A stretch of 64,000 nucleotides of DNA. Source: Streptomyces chartreusis (GTDB lineage Bacteria > Actinomycetota > Actinomycetes > Streptomycetales > Streptomycetaceae). Location: positions 7,998,001 to 8,062,000 of the forward strand of contig NZ_CP023689.1 in assembly GCF_008704715.1 (NCBI RefSeq), given 5' to 3'. The position numbers were made by a program, and so were the translations under genes. Positions 28,375 to 41,420 of the stretch are shown here, piece after piece (within the stretch, counting starts at the first letter, position 1; each line of letters opens with the position of its first letter). The notes under the pieces were generated by a model, which was given only the letters and a program-made list of their open reading frames with translations, did not search any database and was not told the origin of the DNA.

Positions 28375-28446
28375 GGGCGATTAGCTCAGTGGGAGAGCGC
28401 TTCGTTCACACCGAAGAGGTCACTGGTTCGAACCCAGTATCGCCCA
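28375..28446 (+). tRNA. tRNA-Val(CAC), copy 1
   Basis: Acceptor GGGCGAT/ATCGCCC, discriminator A, anticodon loop TTCACAC giving CAC. Identical over the full length to the gene at 38603-38674. No encoded CCA. Confidence 0.95.
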
Positions 28447-28457
28447 CCCGGATCCGA

Positions 28458-32716: not shown

Positions 32717-35452
32717 ATGTCCCCCATCCCCCGCAGGTCCCTTCTCAAGGCGGCCGCGGTCGCCGGAGCCGCCGCACAGTTCAGCTGGGCGCCAGGGGCG
32801 AAGGACGCGCAGGCCGCGCCCCGAGCCGAGGCCGCCGATGCGGAGCCCGTGACCCTGGACTGGCTGGAGGACGGCGGCCTGGGCGCCGCACCCGGCTCCA
32901 CCGTCGGTGTGCCCTGGCCGAAGGGCACGTACCAGGAGGACCAGACGTTCGCGCTGACGGACGCCGACGGCAAGGCCGTCCCCGTGCAGTCGTGGCCGAT
33001 CGCCTACTGGCCCGACGGCTCCCTCAAGTGGACGGCGCACGCGGTCGGTTCGGGCGACGGCAAGCTCACCCTCACCGCGGGGGAGCCCGCCGCCCCCGCC
33101 AGGAAGGTCACCGTCGACAGGAGCGGCGGGACCATCGACGTCTCGACCGGCGTCATCACCGCGAGGATCGGCAAGTCGGGCGCGACCCTCGTCAAGTCGG
33201 TCACCCGCGGCTCCACGGAGATCGCCAGGAACGGCCGGCTCGTGCTGATCCGCCAGCCCGAGATCGAGGACGAGGACCAGGGCGCGGTCAGGACGGAGCG
33301 TTTCGAGGGCGCGATCTCCGAGGTCACGGTCGAGCAGGAGGGACCGGTCCGCGCGGTCGTCCGGATCGACGGAAAGCACCGCAAGGGCAGCCGCAGCTGG
33401 CTCCCCTTCTCCATCCGGCTCTACTTCTACGCGGGCGCCGACTCCTTCCGCATGGTGCACACGATCACCTTCGACGGCACGCAGGAGCCGGGCAGGGCGA
33501 GCGGCGACTTCATCCGCGGCATCGGCGTGCGCTTCACGGTGCCGATGCGGGACCAGTCCTACGACCGTCACATCCGCATCGGCGGCGAGGGCACCGGCAT
33601 GCTCCGCGAGGCCGTCAAGGGCATCACCGGACTGCGCCGCGACCCCGGGGCGGCCGTACAGGCGGCGCAGTTCGCAGGGGAGAAGCTGCCCGACCCGGCC
33701 ACCTGGGACCAGCGCGTCACCACCCGCCTCCAGTACATCCCCGAGTGGGGCGACTACACCCTCTCCCAGCTCTCCGCCGACGGCTTCACCCTGCGCAAGC
33801 GGACCAAGAAGGGGTACGGCTGGATCGGCGCCGGCGGTGGGCGGCGGGCCTCCGGGTTCGCCTACGTCGGCGGTGCCGGCGGCGGACTCTCGCTCGGGCT
33901 GCGGGACTTCTGGGAGAAGTACCCCGCCCAGCTCGACATCCGCGACGCCCACACCGACGCGGCCGAGGTCACCATGTGGCTCTGGTCGCCCGAGGCCCAG
34001 CCCATGGACCTGCGCTTCTACCACGACGGCATGGGCCAGGACACCTACCCCGAGCAGCTCGAGGGCCTCAACATCACCTACGAGGACTACGAGCCGGAGT
34101 TCGGCACGCCCTACGGCATCGCCCGTACCTCGGAACTGCTCTTCTGGGCCAACGAGTCGACGCCCGCGCCGGCCGCCCTGGCCCGGCAGGTCGAGGCCGT
34201 ACGGGTGCTGCCGCAGCTCGCCGCGCCGCCCGGGCAGCTCATCCGGGCCAAGGTCTTCGGGCCGGGGCTCTACTCCGAGCCGGACCGCTCCACACCCGCG
34301 AAGGCGAAGATCGAGGACCACCTCGACTTCCTCTTCACCTACTACAAGGACCAGGTGGAGCAGCGCCGTTGGTACGGCTTCTGGGACCACGGCGACATCA
34401 TGCACACCTACGACACCGTCAGACACCAGTGGCGGTACGACATCGGCGGCTACGCCTGGGACAACTCCGAGCTCTCGCCCGACCTCTGGCTCTGGTTCGC
34501 GTATCTGCGCTCCGGCCGCGCGGACATCTTCCGCTTCGCCGAGGCGATGACCCGGCACACCGGCGAGGTCGACGTCTACCACCTCGGCGAATGGGCCGGC
34601 CTCGGCACCCGGCACGGCGTCCAGCACTACGCCGACAGCGCCAAGCAGCAGCGGATCGCCAACACGACGTACCGCCGCTACTACTACTTCCTCACCGCGG
34701 ACGAGCGCGTCGGCGACCTCATGCACGCCAACGTCGACTCCGACGAGACCTTCCTCGTCCTGGACCCGATCCGCAAGATCCGCACCGAGCCGTACACCCC
34801 GGACCGGCACGCGCTGTCGATCGGCTTCGGCACGGACTGGAGCGGGCTCGTCTCGGCGTGGCTGACCGAGTGGGAGCGCAAGGGCCCCAAGTGGGAGAAG
34901 GCCAAGGCGCGGGTGCTGTCGACGATGGAGACCATCGCCGCGCAGCCGAACGGGTTCGTGCAGGGCAGCGGGCTGTACGACCTCGACACGGGCAGGTTCG
35001 CGATCGCGGCGGAGCCGGTGGTCGGGGTCTCGCACCTGTCCGCCGTCTTCGGGCTCAATGAACTGTGCGCCGAGCTCATCGACCTCGTCGACATGCCGGA
35101 GTTCGACGAGGCGTACTTCGACTACTGCCGGTACTTCAACGCCACGAAGGCGGAGCAGGCGGCGCGGTACGGGTCCAACTTCGGGTCGCTGCTGCTGTTC
35201 CAGGGACACTCGCGGCTGGACGCCTACGCGGCCGTGCGGACGGGGGACGCGAAGCTGGCCGCCCGCGCGTGGGAGAAGTTCTACAACTCCGACGGGTACA
35301 AGGAGTCGGCGCCCTGGAAGACGAAGGCGCTGAGTGGGCCGACTGGCTTGGTACCGGGTAGTGAGGCCGCCTGGGTGTCGACGAATGACACGGCGCTGTA
35401 CGGGCTTGCCGCCATCGAGAACCTGGCGCTGCTCGGGGACAGGATGCCGTGA
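32717..35452 (+). CDS. Tat-exported PcRGLX/YetA-like protein, candidate exo-rhamnogalacturonan lyase (PL26-like)
   Basis: 911 residues. Tat signal with PRRSLLKAAAVAGAAAQF, cleavage near residue 35. The body matches my memory of the three-part PcRGLX/YetA architecture: an N-terminal RIFT-related barrel (about 45-130, with TVGVPWPKGT and SWPIAYWPDGSLKW), a beta-sandwich (about 130-480) and a C-terminal alpha/alpha toroid (about 500-905, with WDHGDIMHTYDT, YAWDNSEL, HHxxYY-like RRYYYFLT). Fungal PcRGLX is an exo-rhamnogalacturonan lyase that removes disaccharides from pectin. Last gene of the importer operon after a 120-base gap with AAGGAAAGG before ATG. Exact substrate unproved. Confidence 0.78.
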   Translation: MSPIPRRSLLKAAAVAGAAAQFSWAPGAKDAQAAPRAEAADAEPVTLDWLEDGGLGAAPGSTVGVPWPKGTYQEDQTFALTDADGKAVPVQSWPIAYWPDGSLKWTAHAVGSGDGKLTLTAGEPAAPARKVTVDRSGGTIDVSTGVITARIGKSGATLVKSVTRGSTEIARNGRLVLIRQPEIEDEDQGAVRTERFEGAISEVTVEQEGPVRAVVRIDGKHRKGSRSWLPFSIRLYFYAGADSFRMVHTITFDGTQEPGRASGDFIRGIGVRFTVPMRDQSYDRHIRIGGEGTGMLREAVKGITGLRRDPGAAVQAAQFAGEKLPDPATWDQRVTTRLQYIPEWGDYTLSQLSADGFTLRKRTKKGYGWIGAGGGRRASGFAYVGGAGGGLSLGLRDFWEKYPAQLDIRDAHTDAAEVTMWLWSPEAQPMDLRFYHDGMGQDTYPEQLEGLNITYEDYEPEFGTPYGIARTSELLFWANESTPAPAALARQVEAVRVLPQLAAPPGQLIRAKVFGPGLYSEPDRSTPAKAKIEDHLDFLFTYYKDQVEQRRWYGFWDHGDIMHTYDTVRHQWRYDIGGYAWDNSELSPDLWLWFAYLRSGRADIFRFAEAMTRHTGEVDVYHLGEWAGLGTRHGVQHYADSAKQQRIANTTYRRYYYFLTADERVGDLMHANVDSDETFLVLDPIRKIRTEPYTPDRHALSIGFGTDWSGLVSAWLTEWERKGPKWEKAKARVLSTMETIAAQPNGFVQGSGLYDLDTGRFAIAAEPVVGVSHLSAVFGLNELCAELIDLVDMPEFDEAYFDYCRYFNATKAEQAARYGSNFGSLLLFQGHSRLDAYAAVRTGDAKLAARAWEKFYNSDGYKESAPWKTKALSGPTGLVPGSEAAWVSTNDTALYGLAAIENLALLGDRMP

Positions 35453-35520: not shown

Positions 35521-38004
35521 TCAGTGCATGTTGCCCAGGAAGTCCCGCATCTTTCGGGCGTCCCTGAGGCGTTGCTCGTACGTCGCTCCGATGGCCAGCA
35601 GGAGGAGGCCGGCCAGGGCCGGGGGTACCCAGCGGGGGAGTGCGTCGGTCACCTGGGCGATGTACGGGGCGAGTTCGTGCAGGGCGTCCAGGGCCAGTAC
35701 CGCGCCGCCGAGCATGAGCGGTGCCTGGAGGTGGTGACGGGCGCCGAGCAGGGTGACCGCCAGGGCCGCGAGGCCGAGCAGCAGGGGGCGGGTCCACTGC
35801 GGGTCGCCCCAGGCCGCGAGGAGGCTCGGCACGAGGGTGGCGGCGAGTCCGGGGCCGTACGCCGTCCAGGACGAGGTCTGCGGATCGCGCCGCCTGCGCA
35901 GGGCGCCGACCAGCAGCGCCGGGACGCTGACCGGCAGGGTGTACGCCTCGGGGGTCCCGACGTCCCAGGCCGCCAGGCGCACCCAAGTGGCCAGCACGAA
36001 CAGCGCGGCGGAGGCGTAGGCCACGGACCGGCGTTCCGGGCGGACGGCGACACCGGCGGTGATCACACCGCACAGCGCCAGCACCAGGGCCAGCATCGGC
36101 AGGTCGGCCGGGGCCGCGGCCAGTGCGACGGCGAGCAGCGCGGCGAGCGCGCCCGTCACCTCGACCGGCACCGTCGCCCGCGCGTCACCGAGCCGTGCCG
36201 CGAGCAGAGCCGCCGCCACCGGGACCACCAGGACCAGCAGGGCGACGTACTGCGACTGCCAGCCGGCCGCAGCCCCCGCCGCACAGGCCAGTCCGGCGGC
36301 GTACGCGAGCCCGGCCGGTGCCGTGACCGGGGCGAGGTGCGTCTCCCAGGAGGCCGCCGCGAAGAGCGCCGTCAGCACGGCGAGCACGGTGAGGGTCGCG
36401 GCCTCGGTGGTCAGCGAGAGGAAGGCGAGGGGGAGGGAGGTGAGGAGGGCGAGGACCGTGGCGGTCGTGCGCGGGGTGGGGAAACCGATGGGAGCGGCCG
36501 TAGCGGCTGAGGGCTGTTCCGCGGAGGTGGTCGTGGGTTCCTCCGTGGAGGCCGCCGCTGGCTCCTCCGTCGTGTCCGGCTGCTCGGACGGCCGTATCCA
36601 CGCGGCCGCCGAGAGGGCGCCGGCCGTGGTGATCGCAAGTACCACCAGGCCCATGGCGTAGGGGAGTTCGAGCACGGCGGGCAGGACCAGCGCCGTCGCC
36701 CATGCCAGGACCAGCGATCCGGTCAGGGCCCGGGTCCGCCACGCGGCGTCGCGTGCCGCGAGGAGCAGTACGGCGGCGACGATCGCCAGGACGACCGGCA
36801 CCGTCTCCGTGTCCGGCGGCCACGGAGCGTCGACCGCCATGGCCTGCCGCACATCGCCCGGCGCCCCGGACCACACCTGCTCCACCCAGGCGACCGGACC
36901 CACCAGCGCGAGCGCCACCGGCGGCAGCGTCCACAGCAGGGCCAGTCCCTGTACGGCGGCGGAGGCCCGGACGAGCCCGTCGCGCAACGCCTGCGGCAGC
37001 CGGTCCGCCCAGATCGCCGCCGGCAGGGCGATCCCGCACACCAGATACACCGGAACCGTCCACGCCTCCGGCAGCACGGGACGGGCGGTGCCGCCGAGCG
37101 CGGCGACCGTGAGGAGGCCGGCGGCGACGGAGAGGCCGAGGGCCTGCTTCGCGGCGGCCTGCTGCCACGCCGCCGTGACCGCGATGCCCGCGGCCAAGAG
37201 GAGGAGCGCCGCCGCACGGGCGGCGGCGCTCGGGCCGGTGGCCGTCCAGGACAGCCAGCCGGCGGCCCACACGCCCCAGGCGCCCATGCCGTACGCGCCG
37301 ATCACCGCGGTGATCCGCACGGACCCGGCAGGCGCCCGGAGCGCCACACCCGCGTCGAACCCGGCCGTCACCAGCACGGCGGCCGTGATCCCGAACAGGC
37401 TCGCGTCGGCCGCCACCGCCCACAGCGTGAGCGGGAGTTGGGCGGCGAGCAGAGCGGCGGGCAGGGGCAGACGCAGCTCGCAGGTGCGCGGCAGCAGGCC
37501 GTACGCCGTCCACAGGGCCGCCAGCACCGCCGAAGCGGCCGCGAGATACCCCGTGGCGTCCACGTCGGCCAGTCCGACCTCGTGCAGCGCGTAGGCGTCG
37601 AGCACCGTCAGTACGAGCCCGAGGCCCGCCACCGACTCGGCCGTCGACCGCAGCCCGCGCTTCAGCAGCGGCACCGGCGCGGCGAGCACCGCCACCGTGA
37701 CCGCGCCGAGCACCAGGGCCCGCCCGGCGATCCCCATGTGCCCCCAGCTGACCAGTGTGAACGCCATCGCGGCGATCGTCAGCAGGACACCGCCCAGCAC
37801 GAGCAGGACGTTCTGGACCCGGGGCGCCGAGGCCTCGGGGCGAGGTGGGGCGAGAGGCGCCGGAGCGGACCGGGGCGCCGCCGCTTGCAGCGCGGTGACC
37901 AGCCAGGCTCGGCGGTGCAGCAACTGGGCCCGGCGGGCGTCCAGTTGGCGCAGCTCGAGGTCGAGGAGCCGCAACTCCTCGGCCGGGGGCGGAAAGTGCG
38001 TCAT
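35521..38004 (-). CDS. Large polytopic membrane protein of unknown function
   Basis: 827 residues, of which residues about 70-820 consist of some twenty or more hydrophobic segments. The N-terminal 60 residues are charged and helical (EELRLLDLELRQLDARRAQLLHRR in part), followed by a Pro/Ala linker. Near the middle is a Thr/Ser/Glu-rich insert (about residues 510-545). The C-terminus is basic (TYEQRLRDARKMRDFL). No transporter or transferase motif is recognised. ATG 38004 is preferred; an ATG 15 codons upstream is possible. Divergent from the SRPBCC gene. Confidence 0.75.
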   Translation of the reverse strand: MTHFPPPAEELRLLDLELRQLDARRAQLLHRRAWLVTALQAAAPRSAPAPLAPPRPEASAPRVQNVLLVLGGVLLTIAAMAFTLVSWGHMGIAGRALVLGAVTVAVLAAPVPLLKRGLRSTAESVAGLGLVLTVLDAYALHEVGLADVDATGYLAAASAVLAALWTAYGLLPRTCELRLPLPAALLAAQLPLTLWAVAADASLFGITAAVLVTAGFDAGVALRAPAGSVRITAVIGAYGMGAWGVWAAGWLSWTATGPSAAARAAALLLLAAGIAVTAAWQQAAAKQALGLSVAAGLLTVAALGGTARPVLPEAWTVPVYLVCGIALPAAIWADRLPQALRDGLVRASAAVQGLALLWTLPPVALALVGPVAWVEQVWSGAPGDVRQAMAVDAPWPPDTETVPVVLAIVAAVLLLAARDAAWRTRALTGSLVLAWATALVLPAVLELPYAMGLVVLAITTAGALSAAAWIRPSEQPDTTEEPAAASTEEPTTTSAEQPSAATAAPIGFPTPRTTATVLALLTSLPLAFLSLTTEAATLTVLAVLTALFAAASWETHLAPVTAPAGLAYAAGLACAAGAAAGWQSQYVALLVLVVPVAAALLAARLGDARATVPVEVTGALAALLAVALAAAPADLPMLALVLALCGVITAGVAVRPERRSVAYASAALFVLATWVRLAAWDVGTPEAYTLPVSVPALLVGALRRRRDPQTSSWTAYGPGLAATLVPSLLAAWGDPQWTRPLLLGLAALAVTLLGARHHLQAPLMLGGAVLALDALHELAPYIAQVTDALPRWVPPALAGLLLLAIGATYEQRLRDARKMRDFLGNMH

Positions 38005-38104
38005 GCCAGGAGTGTGGTCCGCGTCACGCCGCAGGACATGAGTGCGCATACTCAGTCCGTACTCAGATACGGCACAAACGCCCTGGCGGGGGCAGACTCG
38101 GCCC

Positions 38105-38563
38105 ATGGACTGGAGCCACTACCGCTTCCGCGCCCTGTGGGCCCTGCCCGCGCCGCCCGCCGCCGTCTACGACGCCCTCGAACGGGCCGAGGACTACCCC
38201 GGCTGGTGGCCGCAGGTCCGCGAGGTGACCAGGACCGACGACACCAGCGGCGTGATCACGATCCGCTCGGTCCTGCCGTACGCCATGACCTTCACCGCGC
38301 GCGAGGTGCTCCGGGACCGTGCGGCCGGAGTGCTGGAGGTCGCCATGAGCGGCGACATCGACGGCTGGGCGCGCTGGACCGTCACCCCGCGCGGCGGCGG
38401 GAGTCTGGCTCGCTACGAGCAGGTCGTCGACGTGAACAAGCCGTTGCTGCGGCGGCTCGCGGTGCCCGGGCGGCCCTTCTTCCGTGCCAACCACTGGCTG
38501 ATGATGCGCTCCGGACGGCGCGGTCTCACGGCCCACCTGGCCGGAGGTCATCAAGCGGTTTGA
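38105..38563 (+). CDS. SRPBCC (START-like) family protein
   Basis: 152 residues with the polyketide-cyclase/START fold: an N-terminal strand RFRALWALPAPPAAVYDAL, helix EDYPGWWPQV (typical of the family), and a C-terminal helix. These proteins bind hydrophobic ligands in a deep pocket; the ligand here is unknown. CAGACT ends 6 bases before ATG 38105 and no ribosome binding site is present, indicating a leaderless transcript. Confidence 0.83.
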   Translation: MDWSHYRFRALWALPAPPAAVYDALERAEDYPGWWPQVREVTRTDDTSGVITIRSVLPYAMTFTAREVLRDRAAGVLEVAMSGDIDGWARWTVTPRGGGSLARYEQVVDVNKPLLRRLAVPGRPFFRANHWLMMRSGRRGLTAHLAGGHQAV

Positions 38564-38602: not shown

Positions 38603-38674
38603 GGGCGATTAGCTCAGTGGGAGAGCGCTTCGTTCACACCGAAGAGGTCACTGGTTCGAACCCAGTATCGCCCA
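38603..38674 (+). tRNA. tRNA-Val(CAC), copy 2
   Basis: Base-for-base identical to 28375-28446: acceptor GGGCGAT/ATCGCCC, anticodon CAC. Followed by a rho-independent terminator. Confidence 0.95.
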
Positions 38675-38684
38675 CCGGGAAGAG

Positions 38685-38739: not shown

Positions 38740-39465
38740 TCATGCCGCCGCCGGCAGGTCCGGGCGCAGTGGCCACGCCGGGTCCACCGCCTCGTCGTTG
38801 CCGCTGCGGGCGAACCACGCCTGGAGGCCGCGCGCCTGCGCCGCGTGCCACACCGCCTGGAGCGTGTGCAGCTCCGCGGGGGACAGCCGCTCCAGCCGGG
38901 CCGCGAAACGCCGCCCCACGGCCCGTACCACCTCCAGTGACGCCAGTGCGTCGGCCGCCGCCTCGTGCGCGCCGTCCAGCGTGACGCCGTAGTGCTCGCA
39001 CAGGTCCGTCAGGGTGCGACGGCCCTTGCGGTAGCGGTCCAGGTGTTTGTCGAGGACGCGCGGGTCCAGCACCAGCATCGGAGTCGTCTCGAACCAGTGG
39101 TCCAGCGACGACGCGCGATGGCGGCGCAACTCGCGGTCCAGCAACGTCAGATCGAACGGTGCGTTCATCACCACGATCGGCCGGTTCACCGCGGCCTGCG
39201 CCGCCAGTTCCTCGGCTATCTCATGCATCACCGGCGCCGGCCAGCGGCCGTTGCGCTGCAGATGCTCATCCGTCAGTCCGTGCACCGCCGTCGCCGCCTC
39301 CGGCACCGGTACGCCCGGGTTGACCAGCCACCGGATCACCCGGGGCCGGGCCCCCGGGGCGTCCTGGACGACGACGGCCGCCGAGACGATCCGGTCGGTC
39401 TCGACGTCCACGCCTGTTGTCTCCGTGTCGAATGCCGCCAGCGGGCCCTCATACCAGCACGCCAT
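38740..39465 (-). CDS. DEDDh 3'-5' exonuclease (DnaQ/epsilon-like)
   Basis: 241-residue exonuclease of the DnaQ superfamily. The acidic residues sit in Exo I (FDTETTG), Exo II (NAPFDLTLLDREL) and Exo III (HEAAADALASLEVV), with the catalytic His five residues before Asp as in DEDDh enzymes; HGLTDEHLQ also fits. It is not attached to a polymerase and lacks a BRCT or UvrC part, so a stand-alone repair or RNA-processing nuclease is likely. ATG 39465. Its 3' end faces the tRNA-Val terminator. Confidence 0.88.
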   Translation of the reverse strand: MACWYEGPLAAFDTETTGVDVETDRIVSAAVVVQDAPGARPRVIRWLVNPGVPVPEAATAVHGLTDEHLQRNGRWPAPVMHEIAEELAAQAAVNRPIVVMNAPFDLTLLDRELRRHRASSLDHWFETTPMLVLDPRVLDKHLDRYRKGRRTLTDLCEHYGVTLDGAHEAAADALASLEVVRAVGRRFAARLERLSPAELHTLQAVWHAAQARGLQAWFARSGNDEAVDPAWPLRPDLPAAA

Positions 39466-39633
39466 AACTACACAACCCCTCGTTCACCCACGGCAGCTGA
39501 CGTACCGTCTTCTGCCCGTTTGGTGATACCCGGGCCGTTTGCGACGTACGCCGGAAGGACACAACAGGAGTGCGGGTCTTTGCAGTTCAGCGGCCCGGTA
39601 CGGGGATTCACCTTGCGTGGAAGGCTGTTGGTC

Positions 39634-40200
39634 ATGGCGATAGCGCAGCCCGAGCGGGGCGGGCTGCTGCCCGAACGCACGGGCCCCCATCGCGGTTCAC
39701 TCGCCACCACCGCCTGCATGGAGACATTGCAGGTGGGCTATCTGCACGCCGTCGCCGCGGCGTCGGGATGCTCGCTGTCCCAGCCATTTCCGGACAACGG
39801 CATCGACTGGCACGTCAGCCACAGCGCGCCCGGCCACACGGTCGACGACGAGGTCACCATCAAGGTGCAGCTCAAGGCGACCTATCAGCTCGCGCCGAAC
39901 CCGCCCGGCCGCTTCTTCTCCTTCACGCTCGACAACGACCATCTGGCGAAGCTCGCCCGGACCCCGGTCTCGGTGCACAAGATCCTGGTCGTGATGATCG
40001 TCCCGCGGTCGCAGGAACAGTGGCTGCGCGCCGGTCACGACCGCCTCGACCTGCGGCACTGCTGCTACTGGGTCAACCTGGCCGGGCACCCGATCACCGG
40101 GCGGCGCCGCACCACCGTGCGGATACCGACCTCACGCATCTTCGACGACCGGGCGCTCTGCGAGATCATGACGCGCGTCGGGACGGGAGGCAGACCATGA
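39634..40200 (+). CDS. DUF4365 protein, PD-(D/E)XK nuclease-like
   Basis: 188 residues. The layout E30 in ATTACMETL, D58 in NGIDWHV and Q79-L-K81 in VTIKVQLKAT fits the PD-(D/E)XK restriction-endonuclease-like core of DUF4365 proteins (Q in place of the second acidic residue occurs in relatives). If active, it would cut DNA or RNA with metal; this is not demonstrated. ATG 39634 has GGAAGG 10 bases upstream. Its stop overlaps the next start as ATGA, so the two products probably work together. Confidence 0.75.
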   Translation: MAIAQPERGGLLPERTGPHRGSLATTACMETLQVGYLHAVAAASGCSLSQPFPDNGIDWHVSHSAPGHTVDDEVTIKVQLKATYQLAPNPPGRFFSFTLDNDHLAKLARTPVSVHKILVVMIVPRSQEQWLRAGHDRLDLRHCCYWVNLAGHPITGRRRTTVRIPTSRIFDDRALCEIMTRVGTGGRP

Positions 40201-41420
40201 CGCACCGCCCCCTGGAGGAGCCGATACGACCAGCGAGGCCGCACCCGGCCGACGCGTCCTGGGAGCGTCCCCCCGCGCCCGGCGAGGTCGACCCCGCCGT
40301 CCTCAGCGCCCTGCTGCACAGGCACGGCTGGCAGCGGCGCGGGGGAGCGGCCGGGCGCTACGGCCGCTGGACCCCGCCCGGCCCGGGCGGCAACGGCACC
40401 AGCCTGCTCGTCCCCGAGTCCCGCGCCTTCCCCGACAGCGACGACCTGCTCGGCGAGGCGCTCATCGCCCTGTCCCGCAGTGGCACGCCCTCCGCGCGCG
40501 AGGTGCTGGTCGGGCTCGCCGTGCCCAGCGACGAGGTGCGCTGGTGGCGGGACGCGCCGAGCGGGCCGGCCGGAGCCGCGCCCTGGACCGTCGAGGAGGA
40601 ACTGCGCACCGCCGCCCGCCAGATGCTCCTCGCCGCGGCTCTCGCCACCCGCGCCCGGGCCGGCTACTACGGCGCCCGGCACCGCCGCTCGGCCGCCGCC
40701 ATGCTGGAGAGCGTCCTCGTCGGCTCCGGCGGTCACCACCTCGCCGCCTTCGTGCCGGTCGGGGCGGCCCGACCGCTCGCCGTGCGCCTCCACCAGGCCC
40801 TGTACGCCGCCCGCGAGGCCATCGACTACCAGCGGGCCACCGGCGGCATGGACGCCTTCGACGGTGCCGTCGAGGCGGGTGTCAGCAGGGAGCTCACGGA
40901 AGCGCTGGTGATGCTGGTGCGCGGCACCGAGGGCGCGCGCATCGCCGTCGACTGGTCGCCCGCGGCCGGGGTGCCCGCGGACTGCGCGGCCGGGGTCGAG
41001 CCCGTCGAGTTCTCGCCGGGCGACCTGCCCGTGCTGCGCGAGGCCGGCGCCCGCTATCTGCGCGAGGAGCCGTCCGTGCCGGTCAGGATCACGGGCGCGG
41101 TCGTCCGAATGCGCAGGTCGGGGCCGCGCGGCGAGGGCACCGTACGGCTGCGCGTCATAGCGGGCGCCGAGGTGCCGCACGTCCGGCTGACCCTGGACGA
41201 GGAGGCGTACCGCATCGCGGGCCACGCCCATCTCGTCGGTCTCCCCGTCCGGGTGCACGGACGGCTGGAGAGCCGGGGCGGCTTCCGCAAGATCACCGAC
41301 GCCTCCGGGGTCGTACCGGTCCAGGTGGACGAGGCCGAGCGGGACCGGCTGATGAAGTCGCTCCAGGAGGATCTGGACTTCTTCGAGGAGGCGTGCGGCG
41401 GGGAGGACGCCGGCGACTGA
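40197..41420 (+). CDS. Hypothetical protein with possible OB-like C-terminal region
   Basis: 407 residues, no known domain recognised. The N-terminal 100 residues (PAVLSALLHRHGWQRRGG and GRYGRWTPP) are followed by a mainly helical section. Residues about 290-390 (VRITGAVVRMRRSG, VRLRVIAGAEV, VGLPVRVHGRLESRGGF) read as alternating strands like an OB-fold, and the C-terminus is acidic. Overlaps the DUF4365 gene by 4 bases and has no other near partner. Repeat family B and the thrS leader follow. Confidence 0.7.
   Translation: MTHRPLEEPIRPARPHPADASWERPPAPGEVDPAVLSALLHRHGWQRRGGAAGRYGRWTPPGPGGNGTSLLVPESRAFPDSDDLLGEALIALSRSGTPSAREVLVGLAVPSDEVRWWRDAPSGPAGAAPWTVEEELRTAARQMLLAAALATRARAGYYGARHRRSAAAMLESVLVGSGGHHLAAFVPVGAARPLAVRLHQALYAAREAIDYQRATGGMDAFDGAVEAGVSRELTEALVMLVRGTEGARIAVDWSPAAGVPADCAAGVEPVEFSPGDLPVLREAGARYLREEPSVPVRITGAVVRMRRSGPRGEGTVRLRVIAGAEVPHVRLTLDEEAYRIAGHAHLVGLPVRVHGRLESRGGFRKITDASGVVPVQVDEAERDRLMKSLQEDLDFFEEACGGEDAGD

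Follow-up and report, generated by a model that had tools for sequence, protein, structure and literature searches.

An overlapping DUF4365 nuclease-like gene and its predicted OB-fold partner, resident beside thrS in Streptomyces, form a candidate immune pair

Within a 64,000-nucleotide stretch of the Streptomyces chartreusis chromosome (contig NZ_CP023689.1, positions 7,998,001 to 8,062,000, in a 9.9 Mb genome that forms one contig; hereafter the window), two overlapping genes encode a nuclease-like protein and a partner that by their sequence matches correspond to an already catalogued two-gene candidate defence system, PDC-M02. Gene A (39634..40200, + strand) encodes a DUF4365 protein of 188 amino acids assigned to PDC-M02A from Pfam, PADLOC-DB, alignment and structure matches, and gene B (40197..41420, +) encodes a 407-amino-acid protein assigned to PDC-M02B from PADLOC-DB, a structure model and structure matches. 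We rate the chances as about even that the two form an effector nuclease of the immune type gated by B, comparable to SPARDA (short Argonaute with DREN-APAZ), which is now a resident pair with an immune or genome-protection role. The original prediction had spoken of an 'undescribed' defence or repair module, a word that has to be given up, as the pair is PADLOC's PDC-M02.

Both open reading frames, including the expected 407 residues of B, were confirmed in the sequence, as was the ATGA (40197..40200, +) in which the stop of A overlaps the start of B. An overlap of 4 or 1 bases between the two genes was present in 49 of 50 loci having both, some of which share a genome (in L022 the start of B could not be placed). 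This overlap is not due to chance, and it would couple the translation of B to that of A. Upstream of A, in divergent orientation, lies the DEDDh-type exonuclease gene that had been predicted next door (exo; 38740-39465, −; NCBIfam PRK07942, E 1.3e-91), and downstream of B is thrS, identified from sequence, which starts 224 bases past B. The intergenic region between exo and A (39466..39633) contains a block at ~39520-39545 that is strongly conserved over 50 loci, and this region is probably the promoter of A; searches of it for a LexA-type box and for a simple sigma-70 pattern found neither. The neighbours scanned around the pair comprised the exonuclease, a polyketide-cyclase-like protein, thrS, an ion channel and an HIT protein, and neither a methyltransferase nor a defence gene was found among them. 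Elsewhere in the window, two identical 74-nt tRNA-Val(CAC) genes (28375-28448 and 38603-38676) flank 10.2 kb of DNA encoding a sugar ABC transporter and a rhamnogalacturonan-lyase-like protein (32717-35452). Two tRNA-Val genes are spaced much more closely in relatives, and the segment is possibly an inserted sugar-use cassette. An 861-amino-acid protein (35521-38106), membrane-like by sequence and with no Pfam match at E≤1, also occurs near the A-B locus in several relatives.

Protein A matched Pfam DUF4365 (PF14280) over residues 34-181 of 188 (E 4.4e-22, 79.1 bits against a gathering cutoff of 24.3) and PDC-M02A in PADLOC-DB (E 1.2e-93); all NCBIfam matches of A and B fell below cutoff. In an alignment of 14 diverse A proteins, D54, D58, Q79 and K81 were invariant and E30 was kept in 12. 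A thus has the conserved acidic residue and the (D/E/Q)xK of the PD-(D/E)XK superfamily, and the original description of a PD-(D/E)XK-like protein with E30, D58, Q79 and K81 is borne out by the residues themselves, by their conservation and by the DUF4365 match. Against PDB sequences, the A profile weakly matched EcoRV (E 0.066), and profiles A3 and A4 had no relatives at E≤10. The QLK stretch of A faces the DIK of EcoRV in this match, so that Q in A takes the place of the second acidic residue of EcoRV. The structure model of A was poor (mean pLDDT 52.6), and the fold searches depend on this low-confidence model. Its element order fits a PD-(D/E)XK core, and the top eleven Foldseek matches were all SPARDA chains (E 1.4e-3 to 4.6e-2), with the DREN domain as best counterpart. 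With VIA-align the best match was SwaI (Z 6.0, 127 aligned, 3.6 Å), and Holliday-junction resolvases (Hjc) were among the weaker structural matches. A therefore likely adopts a PD-(D/E)XK-type nuclease fold in the model and may act as an effector nuclease with putative metal-dependent cleavage. The SPARDA DREN domain, a DNA and RNA effector nuclease that equals DUF4365, is reported to have D41, Q60 and K62 as catalytic residues and, as an isolated domain, to show no detectable activity until tetramerised (PMC12205087); for TmuRE, a DREN relative, mutation of Q62 and K64 is reported to be inactivating (PMC10810196).

Protein B had no Pfam family at E≤1 and no PDB chain better than E 0.06 by sequence. 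Its match to PDC-M02B (E 1e-183) overturns the claim that it belongs to no known family. The model of B (mean pLDDT 69.3) comprises a low-confidence N-terminal part, a helical middle at ~130-240 and a C-terminal unit. Within the latter, residues 294-374 (41076..41318, +) are predicted, at a block pLDDT of 79-93, to follow the beta-beta-beta-alpha-beta-beta order of an OB-fold, that is, five strands with the helix between strands 3 and 4. By Foldseek, B matched an RPA subunit as well as SSB proteins of mycobacteria and Streptomyces (E 1.2e-3 to 3.4e-3). VIA-align, with matches over residues ~293-376, returned SilF at the top, SSBb, PriB, RecO and others at Z 8 to 9.7, and also OB domains of asparaginyl- and aspartyl-tRNA synthetases. 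The OB-like C-terminus that had been foreseen therefore appears in the model and in its structural matches. These matches are generic and OB-folds are versatile; binding of single-stranded DNA by B is suggested by the modelled fold. In a Nostoc plasmid and a Tolypothrix plasmid, a B of 180 amino acids (L207 5001-5543 and L208 5001-5543) consists of the N-terminal and OB modules and still lies beside A, which in Tolypothrix is in two pieces. Because this cyanobacterial plasmid B lacks the middle and still adjoins A, the middle module seems dispensable to the pair.

Across 392 genomes of the genus, B was matched in 345 (E≤1e-3) and A in 327 (E≤1e-15). The two genome lists, compared by eye and drawn at these different thresholds, gave 327 genomes with both genes, none with A only, 18 with B only and 47 with neither; the Fisher p of 3e-46 is overstated because the genomes are related, and G063 was scored A-positive though it holds only A residues 1-70. 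Chance adjacency of A and B is ruled out by this co-occurrence together with the conserved overlap. The order exo, A, B, thrS recurred in every Streptomyces locus long enough to show it. In the family, B was matched in 76 of the 121 genomes, spread over 11 of the 17 genera, and 13 of 13 loci from ten other family genera, chosen from B matches, carried A, B and thrS in that order, 12 of them also with exo (A is split in two in G919).

Distances for A and for B tracked those of exo over 57 loci (Mantel Spearman 0.92 and 0.94, with 0 of 999 permutations as high; six loci, mainly duplicates, were omitted: L011, L016, L032, L034, L049 and L221). Median dN/dS was 0.139 for A, 0.221 for B, 0.170 for exo and 0.155 for thrS, showing that A is about as constrained as its exo and thrS neighbours; some loci of the overlap, dN/dS and family-locus sets share a genome (G007 and G011, for example, occur twice). 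Recent horizontal gain at the thrS site is unsupported, as all 13 family loci are thrS-linked and the distances follow exo. Together, these comparisons of sequences indicate that the pair at thrS has descended vertically under purifying selection and has long belonged to the inherited genome. Exo itself was still detectable at 14 of 20 thrS loci picked mostly for being without the pair (in pieces in G108). For this reason we did not count it in the A-B unit and set aside the functional link that the original prediction had implied; the divergent exonuclease is probably unrelated to the pair. G019, G301 and G948 each carry a divergent second A-B pair at another chromosomal place, and in G060 a pair is present away from the thrS site, which itself has none. 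Four loci (L190, L196, L197 and L225) hold divergent A-B pairs at other places in chromosomes of this bacterial family, with A 34-52% and B 29-30% identical to those of the window, and two of these pairs adjoin a YaaC-like gene.

Outside the family the pair is patchy, since matches at class and phylum level fell mostly within the genus: the B profile matched 24 of 296 genomes of the class, 22 of them in the window's genus, and the PDC-M02B model PDLC04335 matched 11 of 246 genomes of the phylum, 7 of them in the genus. The pair was found in the same gene order on plasmids, prophage-like contigs and other genomes of distant bacteria, with hosts including Tistrella, Gluconobacter, Methylobacterium, Phaeobacter, Caballeronia, Entomospira, Pusillibacter, Nostoc, Bifidobacterium and Sphaerisporangium. 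The A and B profiles were applied to 26 loci away from the thrS site, a set in which some organisms occur twice and which includes four second copies from within the family or similar cases. In 25 of them A adjoined B and ran in the same direction; among these, L203, L206 and L208 have an A match that is incomplete, weak or split in two. The A profile found no A at L199, where a 110-amino-acid open reading frame on a Pigmentibacter plasmid (4672-5004) lies 5' of B with a 4-base overlap and is not recognised as A. A scan of contigs for such pairs used a single narrow pattern and gave only 5 loci. The genes are thus not separate in most genomes, A being without B in 0 of 392 and adjacency holding also away from thrS.

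Several neighbours of these relatives are defence-related or phage-related: L101 has an EcoEI-type R subunit, L102 an MvaI/BcnI endonuclease, L209 a C5 methylase, L083 McrC, L211 a phage S24 repressor, L100 a ShosA-like DprA, and L201 three DUF262 genes with an Abi gene. YaaC proteins are further neighbours, in L190 and L196. These examples were selected after looking and carry no background rate. When 10 further neighbours were compared with PADLOC, one matched, weakly, as HNH. The window's B had no match in phage records, and no relatives of profile A1 were confirmed in viral contigs. Overall, the pair resembles a mobile defence cassette outside the family and a core gene pair within it.

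This suggests a model in which A and B act as one functional unit, a DUF4365 (DREN-like) effector nuclease with a dedicated partner. B would hold A, probably via its N-terminal module, and the predicted C-terminal OB-fold would sense single-stranded DNA that has become exposed, or some other nucleic acid that signals invasion; OB-fold binding would then gather A subunits, upon which nucleic acid would be cut. Elsewhere in bacteria the unit would be a travelling cassette and anti-phage candidate (PDC-M02). Among Streptomyces-like bacteria and their related genera, where one copy is fixed beside thrS and passes down vertically, it would most likely be a standing immune or genome-protection nuclease. 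The earlier idea of a two-part nucleic-acid-processing unit gains support from the protein families, the co-occurrence and the adjacency across phyla. Against a defence role stands the setting itself: anti-phage systems are not typically fixed among housekeeping genes and inherited vertically. The generic OB matches, the poor A model, the survival of B without A, the genome G184 described below, the single PADLOC match among ten further neighbours and the lack of a phage record for B also count against the model.

The same setting would suit a housekeeping DNA-repair or recombination complex, in which the OB-fold of B would bind single-stranded DNA where there is damage or stalling, leaving A to trim or cleave the structure; the mobile relatives would be offshoots, or unrelated in their use. 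The pair is core and syntenic in the family, where it descends vertically, A is as constrained as exo and thrS, the OB-fold of B resembles those of SSB, RPA, PriB and RecO, and Holliday-junction resolvases appear among the weaker matches of the A model. However, about one genus genome in eight (47 of 392) has neither gene and shows no replacement at the site, most of the phylum is without the pair, relatives are carried by plasmids and prophage-like contigs or adjoin restriction genes, and the best structural matches of A are immune effector nucleases. We therefore regard a repair complex as unlikely, though as a reading to be taken seriously. A bolder reading, which we rate as unlikely, is an immune pair domesticated in this family: a B sensing single-stranded DNA and the DREN-like A, no longer a mobile cassette, would serve as a resident checkpoint, with DNA being destroyed once single-stranded DNA builds up. 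Compartments of the mycelium that are invaded, mating or dying may be examples of such settings.

How the pair is lost bears on the relation between the two proteins. At the thrS locus, read in 17 of the 18 B-only genomes (G048 was left out), 8 had an open B without the A core, 2 loci were cut by contig ends, 4 had B fragments only and 3 had no B there. G063 is a ninth genome with an open B and without the A core, the first 70 residues of A preceding B. In such genomes dN/dS of B ranged from 0.14 to 0.47 (nine pairs of >60% identity), compared with a median of 0.22 in intact pairs, indicating that B without the A core is partly constrained and partly relaxed. In 5 of the 9 genomes the B match starts only at residue 54 to 112. 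Given its survival in these nine genomes, B may have an independent role. At the thrS site, remnants of either gene persist, for example in G147, G061, G165 and G374, showing that loss of the pair happened in place. A counter-example is G184 (L188 646-1718), in which A is unbroken and only residues 26-155 of B are left, shortly before thrS. Frameshifts in B next to an unbroken A are also seen in G354, G239, G135 and G117; in the first two, genes nearby are broken as well, pointing to sequencing errors, and G135 and G117 are not explained in this way.

That A never occurs without B, that B occurs without A in 18 of 392 genomes and that the genes overlap would be expected of a toxin-antitoxin-like pair, in which A is toxic alone and restrained by B and which persists by addiction, or by abortive infection if B is disturbed. 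We consider this improbable. B is large and outlasts A, whereas an antitoxin is expected to decay after loss of its toxin, and G184 keeps A beside a truncated B. The presumed toxin would also be the first gene, which is the less usual order in toxin-antitoxin pairs, and the related DREN domain is reported to be inactive alone (PMC12205087). An RNA-directed pair, with the B OB-fold binding tRNA or other RNA like anticodon-binding OB domains, A cutting RNA and the site beside thrS and a tRNA-Val gene being meaningful, could draw on the synthetase OB domains among the B matches, the fixed place beside thrS and the description of DREN as a DNA and RNA effector nuclease (PMC12205087), but is very improbable, as relatives elsewhere are as a rule not near synthetase genes (in Pusillibacter trpS is ~3 kb away), thrS begins 224 bases after B, and SSB and RPA outrank synthetases in Foldseek.

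If the preferred reading, an effector nuclease gated by B, is true, the pair would be a resident device for immunity or genome surveillance, in bacteria that matter for antibiotics. As a rule, defence systems are mobile and patchy; a candidate pair that descends vertically, under constraint similar to that of its housekeeping neighbours, and occurs in most of the genus genomes examined would be rare. It would also offer a two-protein setting for asking how a DUF4365 nuclease switches on without an Argonaute. At the same time, the single label PDC-M02 may span mobile defence and resident functions.

Among known systems, the type II restriction endonucleases EcoRV and SwaI share with A the PD-(D/E)XK arrangement; a restriction function of their type differs in that no methyltransferase was present among the A-B neighbours scanned, and in that A has Q for the second acidic residue of EcoRV. 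SSB, RPA32 and PriB share the five-strand OB order predicted for ~80 C-terminal residues of B; unlike them, B carries some 290 further residues. Literature searches combining OB-fold with nuclease, anti-phage and further terms, and searches for the presumed locus tags SCO1532-SCO1534, returned no paper. SPARDA is close to the pair in its DUF4365 effector nuclease with D..QxK, and provided the best structural matches of A. SPARDA nevertheless has an APAZ fusion (residues 161-442 as reported for NbaSPARDA, PMC12205087), whereas A is DUF4365 alone in 188 residues, and its partner is a short Argonaute (MID-PIWI), whereas B is without a Piwi Pfam match (E≤1) and has a predicted OB-fold instead. With no Argonaute and no APAZ, membership in SPARDA is ruled out. 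A full-text search for PDC-M02 returned no paper and no published validation or anti-phage test, and PADLOC PDC systems are described as putative and mostly unvalidated (PMC12988326). It is this system (PADLOC-DB 2.0.0, M02A + M02B) that the pair most fully resembles, both components being matched over nearly their full length in adjacent, overlapping genes; PDC-M02 is patchy and mobile, whereas the pair described here is fixed at a single chromosomal site and vertically inherited.
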